Assembly: GCA_905234505.1 (NCBI GenBank)
Contig: CAJOIA010000026.1
Location: forward strand, 1 to 33,178
Direction of reading: 5' to 3'
DNA length: 33,178 nucleotides
DNA from: an uncultured Selenomonadaceae bacterium
GTDB lineage: Bacteria > Bacillota > Negativicutes > Selenomonadales > Selenomonadaceae
Below, in pieces: positions 31,715 through 33,178 of this stretch (position 1 is its first letter; each line of letters begins with the position of its first letter). The notes beneath the pieces are model-generated. The model saw only the letters and a program-made list of their open reading frames with translations, made no database searches and was not told the origin of the DNA. The translations under genes and the position numbers were made by a program.

Positions 31715-32497
31715 TTATTCCTGTTCATTCGCGTCTTTATCGACGTAGTCTTCTTGATTAACTTCTTCTTCAGCATAATCAGCATTTGCCGGAGTATAAT
31801 CAACCGCGCCGCCTTCGCCTTGATTGCCTTCAATAATCGCGTCAGCCATTCTTGCGGTCAAAAGTTTTACTGCGCGAATCGCGTCGTCATTGCCTGGAAT
31901 TACATAATCAATTTCATCCGGATCGCAGTTAGTATCGACAATAGCCACAATCGGAATATTGAGCTTGCGAGCTTCTGCCACTGCAATTCTTTCTTTGCGC
32001 GGGTCAACTACGAAAAGCGCGCCTGGAAGTTTATTCATTTCCTTGATACCGCCAAGATATTTTTCAAGGCGGCTCATTTCGTGCTTAAGTTGCATAACTT
32101 CTTTTTTGGTAAGCACGTCGAAAGTTCCATCTGCCTGCATTGTTTCAAGTTCTTTCAAGCGACGGATACGTCTTTGGATAGTTTGAAAATTGGTGAGCAT
32201 ACCGCCGAGCCAGCGCTCATTGACGAAAAATTGTCCTGCGCGAATAGCTTCTTCTTTAACTGCTTCCTGAGCCTGCTTTTTAGTGCCGACAAACAAAATT
32301 GTCTTGCCCTCTTCGGCGATACTGCGAATGAACATATACGCTTCGTCAACTTTTTTAACAGTTTTCTGAAGGTCGATAATGTAAATTCCATTGCGCTCCG
32401 TGAAAATGTACTTCGCCATTTTCGGATTCCAGCGGCGGGTTTGATGCCCAAAATGCACGCCAGCTTCCAAGAGCTGTTTCATTGAAATAACTGCCAT
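31715..32497 (-). CDS. rpsB: 30S ribosomal protein S2
   Basis: 260 aa. Begins [20 protein letters not shown] and contains [32 protein letters not shown] and [10 protein letters not shown], all standard for S2, plus [20 protein letters not shown] near residue 160. The last ~30 residues are an acidic tail ([18 protein letters not shown]). ATG 32497 has AGGAGG 9 nt upstream. First gene of rpsB-tsf, with promoter at 32599-32628 and a GC-rich ~95-nt leader. Confidence 0.98.
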
Positions 32498-32640: not shown

Positions 32641-32673
32641 AAAAAAATTCTCTCGAACGTTTTCAGTCGAGAG
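32641..32673 (-). terminator. Intrinsic terminator upstream of the rpsB promoter
   Basis: Perfect 7-bp stem on the minus strand (CTCTCGA / TCGAGAG, 32650-32656 with 32667-32673), 10-nt loop, then AA and seven T (32641-32647). It ends a minus-strand transcript arriving from the flagellin side, about 400 nt past the flagellin stop. Confidence 0.8.
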
Positions 32674-33072
32674 GAAACTAACAATAACAATGGTGTAATT
32701 ATATGATACGCGGACTCACTCGTCAGCAAATTCGCGATATCAACTGATTTATTAAAACGATTAAATCGGTTGTTTGAAAAAGAATGCGGGTCTATTCCCT
32801 CAAGAATAAACTCCGACTATTGGTAGTAAAAAACTTTTAAATATCGCAACCTGAGCTCGGGACTCGAGGCTGCGGTATTAGCGATTTATAAAACAATAAT
32901 TAAGATGATTGCAGAGCGGGAAACCGCCTTGACGATTCCCCGCCAATTTAGGTTTGCGTATAAATTATTCTTGACACATTGTAATTTCGTTCGGCTTATA
33001 TATTCTTGCCGACTGTAACATGTTTGTAAATTCTACCAAAGAGCCTCACATTCGACTCGGAGTTATTTTAAA
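32674..33072 (-). other. Gene-free structured region between flagellin and rpsB (candidate RNA or long 3' UTR)
   Basis: About 400 nt with no plausible coding frame on either strand. Several inverted repeats occur. 32705-32741 pairs GATA(T)CGCG with CGCGTATC. 32741-32772 is an 11-bp hairpin. 32845-32874 is CGCAGCCT..AGGTTGCG on the minus strand, with a G-U pair where the plus strand has a mismatch. 32916-32943 is an 8-bp GC stem, also better on the minus strand. Two of the repeats therefore favour a minus-strand RNA, though the 32741-32772 hairpin is better on plus. A terminator closes the region. Function unknown. Confidence 0.45.
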
Positions 33073-33178
33073 TTACTGGAGCAAGCTCAGTACTGCGCTG
33101 GAATTTTGGTTAGCCTGCGCGAGCATTGATTGAGCTGCCTGCAAGAGTACGTTGTTCTTCGTGTAGTTGGTCATTTCC
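33073..33178 (-). CDS. fliC: Flagellin C-terminus (partial)
   Basis: Only the last 34 codons are inside the window; the gene continues past the right edge. The translation ends EMTNYTKNNVLLQAAQSM then LAQANQNSSAVLSLLQ-stop, which is the conserved C-terminal D0 helix of bacterial flagellins (NYTKNN.L.QAA.SMLAQAN......LLQ). Flagellin is the exported filament subunit, normally transcribed by sigma-28, which is encoded at 14857-15585. No terminator follows directly; the next one is at 32641-32673. Confidence 0.92.
   Translation of the reverse strand, partial: EMTNYTKNNVLLQAAQSMLAQANQNSSAVLSLLQ

Follow-up and report, generated by a model that had tools for sequence, protein, structure and literature searches.

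Sequence analysis suggests that, in one group of uncultured rumen bacteria, flagellin genes silence one another by means of RNA. We analysed a window of 33,178 nt, the whole of contig C26 of genome G000, in which the 3′ untranslated region (UTR) of a flagellin gene carries an element complementary to the translation start region (TIR) of a sibling flagellin gene. At a probability of roughly two-thirds, our preferred reading is that such UTRs encode a trans-acting antisense network through which sibling flagellins would mutually repress their translation.

The flagellin 3′ UTR in the window is 432 nt long on the minus strand, from the stop at 33073 to an intrinsic terminator at 32673–32641 (stem 32673–32650, T run 32647–32641), which gives it both the location and the terminal signal of a regulatory 3′ UTR. 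The initial annotation had described the stretch from the stop to the terminator as gene-free, with at least four inverted repeats, an asymmetry favouring the minus strand and no recognised RNA class, and each of these points held. No ORF of 80 aa or more lies within 33072–32674. The predicted minus-strand fold reaches −112 kcal/mol (z = −3.46; 0/100 dinucleotide shuffles as good), compared with z = −1.77 and 5/100 for the plus strand. An inverted-repeat search returned one 11-nt pair at 91% (32741–32772) together with palindromes and weaker pairs; the predicted minus-strand fold contains more than six helices, so that the count of repeats had been, if anything, too low. Rfam scans gave no family at the gathering threshold (best sub-threshold E, 1.8–2.6), and a simple terminator scan did not list the terminator at 32673–32641. 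A candidate internal promoter at 32726–32698 was dropped, being by eye not kept in paralogs and having its pattern inside a hairpin (unit C, below). The gene past the terminator, at 32497–31715, we take to be rpsB-like. The metagenome contigs C26, C31, C36, C53, C60 and C82 of G000 end within flagellin genes, which are therefore split over contigs. The parts of the UTR and its flanks are as follows:

33073..33178, minus strand: C-terminal end of the flagellin, truncated by the contig end; the stop ends at 33073
33019..33040, minus strand: sense ‘mimic 1’ of a flagellin start, UUUGGUAGAAUUUACAAACAUG, whose GGUAG pairs with the unit B anti-start element in the predicted fold
32956..32983, minus strand: sense ‘mimic 2’, UACAAUGUGUCAAGAAUAAUUUAUACGC, resembling the GUC-AAG class of flagellin starts
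32916..32943, minus strand: hairpin A, GCGGGGAAUCGUCAAGGCGGUUUCCCGC, in the predicted fold
32884..32912, minus strand: linker with the recurring motif GCAAUCAU, found by eye in paralogs
32837..32881, minus strand: unit B hairpin, AAUACCGC...GCGAUAUU, in the predicted fold
32822..32834, minus strand: unit B anti-start element, GUUUUUUACUACC, complementary to GGUAGUAAAAAAC, codons 3–7 of class I flagellins
32787..32816, minus strand: remnant of the unit B terminator-like hairpin, in the predicted fold
32702..32743, minus strand: unit C hairpin with a GACG loop; 11 of 18 pairs have changes on both sides among 14 sequences
32669..32699, minus strand: unit C anti-start (anti-RBS) element, predicted to pair with the C53 flagellin start of G000
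32641..32673, minus strand: intrinsic terminator, CUCUCGA...UCGAGAG plus T run, whose 5′ arm overlaps the unit C anti-RBS element

DNA searches located UTRs of this type downstream of further G000 flagellin genes (C20, C31 and C36) and in relatives; those relatives that have names are uncultured Selenomonadaceae of ruminants. We folded 15 UTRs from G000, G005, G007, G008, G012 and G024, to which seven from G065 and G069 were added later. They are modular: hairpins at the 5′ end are followed by a sense segment resembling GGUAGUAAAAAAC, by hairpin A and by the GCAAUCAU linker, and then come one to three units, each consisting of a hairpin, an anti-start element and a terminator-like hairpin. A near-exact tandem duplicate of a whole unit is present in the C36/C40 UTRs (L004, L036), and the G065C9 UTR (L136) has three units. 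In an alignment of 14 unit C sequences, 94.0% of pair cells are kept (0/500 shuffles as good) and the double-sided changes in the hairpin were likewise matched by 0/500 shuffles; sliding one partner by 1–3 columns lowered pairing to 36–44%. The conservation and covariation raised by the initial annotation are thus present: the hairpin covaries, and other flagellin genes are followed by paralogs and orthologs of the region. It is well supported by sequence that the region is a structured, conserved RNA belonging to, or processed from, the flagellin transcript. That idea, too, was already in the annotation and gains from the structure, conservation and covariation; the antisense match to sibling starts, and with it the involvement of several genes, had escaped it.

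This arrangement is narrowly distributed. A covariance model of unit C (R1) matched 15 sites in seven of 66 genus genomes, namely the 14 training sequences and a further, weak one in a UTR of G005; it found no other genus among 97 genera (300 class genomes) and no copies away from flagellin genes, in a search that may miss weak relatives because the model includes the anti-start element and the filters were stricter. G008 has unit-B-like UTRs only, so that the arrangement occurs in seven or eight of the 66 genomes. Flagellin UTRs outside the genus are at background: random four-start sets scored against 43 UTRs gave a mean of 18.4 and a maximum of 29, and own-start scores in named other genera were 21 or lower.

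The window element at 32669–32699 is predicted to form 29 pairs, 25 of them contiguous and with a single bulge, with the start of the sibling gene C53 (−41.7 kcal/mol), spanning the Shine–Dalgarno sequence, the start codon and on to codons 5–6. Against the presumed start of its own gene (C60), only −26.3 kcal/mol is predicted. Opening the UTR would cost about 9.4 kcal/mol, and the duplex energy net of this UTR-side cost is still favourable. Across predicted folds, opening the anti-start elements costs 4–21 kcal/mol, and their accessibility shows no excess over the rest of the UTR. The local alignment score of the window element, 41, was reached by 0/500 shuffles (mean 18.8, maximum 35) and by none of the 2,594 75-nt segments of the window. 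For the wider comparison we used four flagellin starts each from G000, G005, G065 and G012, two from G069 and one each from G024 and G008. Ten of 15 UTRs exceed all 500 shuffles; the other five do not (G000C36, 4; G008C36, 5; G024C8, 13; G008C37, 76; G012C107, 90 of 500), the G007 UTRs, which have no known start, having been scored against starts of other genomes and the G008 UTRs against one start that is possibly not the relevant one. Null windows that scored high (38 for G024C161) are matches to other parts of the UTR. The elements fit the TIRs of their own genome and those of other genomes about equally well, except for G024C161.

The start region was picked as the target after the match had been seen by eye, a choice to which the genome scans and the self/non-self permutation below are least exposed. 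With the window element as the pattern (22 fixed bases, up to 3 mismatches), a scan of 1.79 Mb gave four matches, namely the element itself and the starts of C53 (0 mismatches), C20 (2) and C60 (3); the reversed pattern gave none. The C20 element gave eight matches and its control none: the starts of C60 and C82 (0 mismatches), the C31 element and the start of C53 (1), the start of C20 (2) and three more at 3 mismatches, so that the best five are all flagellin starts or a sister element. When whole flagellin mRNAs of G005, G065 and G069 were scanned, the top site fell at the TIR in 29 of 30 non-self UTR–mRNA pairs. Complementarity to the TIRs of other mRNAs therefore goes beyond chance, as is looked for in trans-acting sRNAs derived from 3′ UTRs.

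The UTRs avoid their own start. Scored against the starts within each genome, the own start had the single lowest score in 11 of 14 rows, shared the lowest score in two and ranked second-lowest in one (a fifteenth row, G065C32, lacks a known own start). By duplex energy of the whole UTR, it was weakest in 11, tied in one and second in two. Permuting the assignment of UTRs to starts in G005, G065 and G069 gave P = 0.00087 (1/1152, the smallest possible value) with both loose alignment and duplex energy, and P = 0.0017 with strict alignment; some G065 and G069 UTRs had been cut somewhat past the terminator. G000 alone, an orthologous near relative, showed the same pattern (1/24), its UTR–TIR pairs having been assigned by orthology to G005, as three of the four genes are split over contigs. 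Of 22 units taken singly, 15 had the own TIR as their weakest target or tied for weakest; the exceptions are C31_B, C31_C, C42_B, C42_C, C10_B, C10_C and G065C9_B2, and for C31_B and G065C9_B2 the own TIR is even the strongest. These figures come from metagenome assemblies with contigs broken at flagellin genes and from a small number of independent genomes, with the main permutation based on three.

The starts fall into classes that correspond to the units behind them. Class I starts (GTA AAA AAC AAC; C20, C12, G069C9 and G065C14) belong to genes whose UTRs have unit C only, antisense to GTC AAG-like starts (GTT AAG-like for G065C14). Class II starts (GTC AAG AAC AAT; C82, C40, G069C22 and G065C4) belong to genes whose UTRs have unit B only, antisense to class I starts. 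UTRs of classes III and IV have both units (in the stretch of the G024C8 UTR that was read, only B). Over codons 2–9 of classes I and II, synonymous third positions are kept at 36/36 and 36/36 across four species, compared with 144/236 and 148/238 (0.61–0.62) over codons 11–60; paralogs within one genome share only 0.50–0.72. Flagellin starts are also synonymously conserved in other genera (576/754 vs 2,801/5,155; 0.76 vs 0.54), and start conservation alone therefore proves little. It is the class-specific difference, rather than conservation as such, that fits a role of the starts as labels.

Sense segments resembling starts lie upstream in the UTRs, and their likeness to the own start exceeds random assignment (P = 0.016–0.028), which points weakly to a resemblance of each mimic to its own gene. 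The mimic score of the window UTR by itself was reached by 29/500 shuffles and is thus not above them. In some UTRs the mimic pairs with unit B in the predicted fold, and its likeness to a start may there follow from that pairing. In the C20, C12 and G065C14 UTRs, mimics are present with no unit B as partner, which favours a role for these mimics as decoys.

Taken together, the sequences provide structure, complementarity, genome-wide specificity, self-avoidance and conserved, class-specific starts. From these we infer that transcription runs through the UTR and that the resulting RNA represses siblings and may carry decoys. In the mechanism that we propose, each flagellin mRNA would bear a 3′ UTR built from duplicated units (a covarying hairpin, a TIR-complementary element and a terminator-like hairpin), and the anti-start elements would pair in trans with other flagellin mRNAs of the same cell, at their TIRs. 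The acting form may be the whole mRNA tail or an sRNA derived from the 3′ UTR; Hfq is encoded in the genome. The elements are predicted to cover the Shine–Dalgarno sequence, the start codon and codons 2–9, so that ribosome binding would be blocked and/or a double strand for RNase III would be made. Since the own TIR is the poorest match for these UTRs, repression by a flagellin mRNA would fall on its siblings and not on the mRNA itself. The upstream sense copies of the own TIR may serve as a cage for the anti-start element and/or as a sponge for the siblings’ antisense. The outcome would be mutual repression leading to exclusive or ordered flagellin expression.

Bacteria with several flagellins need to choose or order them, and a circuit of this kind, if real, would give a stable or ordered choice in the absence of proteins. 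We hold only tentatively, at rather less than even odds, the fuller version in which the mRNA tails form a protein-free mutual-exclusion circuit, each tail combining a silencer of paralog ribosome-binding sites with a decoy of its own start, and synonymous ‘address labels’ in codons 2–9 distinguish self from non-self. Coding mRNAs would then appear to regulate their paralogs directly by antisense tails, with self and non-self read from synonymous codons and spacers, which would amount to a simple RNA-based rule by which members of a gene family exclude one another; comparing 3′ UTRs with paralog start sites offers a way to find similar circuits.

The nearest known systems are, by mechanism, the FliX, icaR and hok 3′ ends and, by outcome, FljA. 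Escherichia coli, the host of FliX, belongs to a different phylum from the organism of the window. FliX derives from the E. coli fliC 3′ UTR, pairs inside the fliC coding sequence and with ribosomal-protein mRNAs, and lowers flagellin (PMC10578931). What it shares with our prediction is pairing with flagellin mRNA by an RNA from the 3′ UTR of a flagellin gene; the window-type elements differ in being complementary to the starts of several sibling genes, in avoiding self and in coming as repeated units. In Staphylococcus aureus, the icaR 3′ UTR is likewise complementary to a Shine–Dalgarno region, but in cis, through a 7-nt motif and on the same mRNA (PMC3868564), whereas the flagellin element is about 30 nt long and has its own mRNA as the worst target. 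The 3′ end of hok mRNA also folds back onto a translation start region, in cis and for a single gene (PMC5502269). FljA of Salmonella phase variation represses fliC mRNA (PMC2652032), so that there, as predicted here from pairing, the expression of one flagellin blocks translation of another’s mRNA; that system uses a protein repressor and DNA inversion, unlike the proposed one, which would be RNA only, reciprocal and shared by several genes. A dual-function flagellin mRNA in the CsrA–FliW network of Campylobacter jejuni (PMC4894983) similarly has a role besides coding, although it acts in a CsrA network and the available part of that paper contains no sibling antisense. Regulatory 3′ UTRs are already known; the principle here is possibly new, as we found no description of flagellin 3′ UTRs antisense to paralog starts, judging from titles and abstracts with thin coverage of subscription papers and preprints.

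Among other explanations, the most serious is cis autoregulation, in which the 3′ UTR would fold back on its own start and close the mRNA. The mechanism is known from icaR (PMC3868564) and from hok and icaR together (PMC5502269), in several UTRs the score for the own TIR remains quite high (G005C12, 37; G000C20, 40; loose alignment), and in another set of genomes within the genus a short UTR motif, CAUGUUGUUCGAUACUA, resembles the antisense of codons 4–9 of the same gene (15/17 bases). An icaR-type 3′ UTR would prefer the start of its own mRNA; here, no other start scored below the own one in 13 of 14 rows (P = 1/1152), and we consider this explanation unlikely. Slightly less probable still is a purely structural or stabilizing role, whereby a structured 3′ end would protect an abundant mRNA or supply tandem terminators, with the similarity to starts as a by-product: it accounts for the strong folds, the covarying hairpins and the tandemly duplicated units, with their terminators, of C36/C40, and leaves unexplained the 25 uninterrupted pairs with a ribosome-binding site, the genome-wide specificity and the self-avoidance.

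Two further explanations seem to us highly improbable, and equally so. Read on the plus strand, the anti-RBS element looks like a flagellin start with AUG (C26:32671-32694:+), as might be expected of a recombination site or of flagellin 5′ ends that were duplicated in inverted orientation and then decayed; the similarity ends around codon 9 with no ORF after it, however, and such a relic would explain neither the self-avoidance nor the repetition as units that include covarying hairpins and terminators and that occur exclusively downstream of flagellin genes. The RNA might instead be a trans-acting sRNA with mainly non-flagellin targets, for which pairing with flagellin mRNA is secondary, much as E. 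coli FliX also acts on ribosomal-protein mRNAs (PMC10578931). In the genome scans with two elements, by contrast, flagellin sites were the only or the best matches. Mutual antisense repression among sibling flagellins in trans thus remains the reading that we prefer.

This other set of genus members (L017, L019–L023, L025–L027, L147 and others) has a short 3′ UTR in which, within roughly the first 110 nt after the stop, a conserved hairpin is followed by CAUGUUGUUCGAUACUA and a terminator, the motif being approximately antisense to the gene’s own UAGUAAAGAACAACAUG (codons 4–9). The motif is present in 27 UTRs, for 20 of which a start was available; in eight of those 20, the start scored above all other windows of the gene, which is no more than suggestive of an antisense to the own start. 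In L115, L155, L143 and L144, the first 150 nt after the stop contain CACCAUUG or UACC...ACCAUUUA immediately upstream of the terminator, anti-start-like in appearance and with scores not above background. The flagellins with tails of the window type in G005 and G065 are large, with open frames of about 740–1,090 aa, and flagellin 5′ leaders (L085–L092) have a common GACGGTC...TTATTA pattern upstream of the Shine–Dalgarno sequence.
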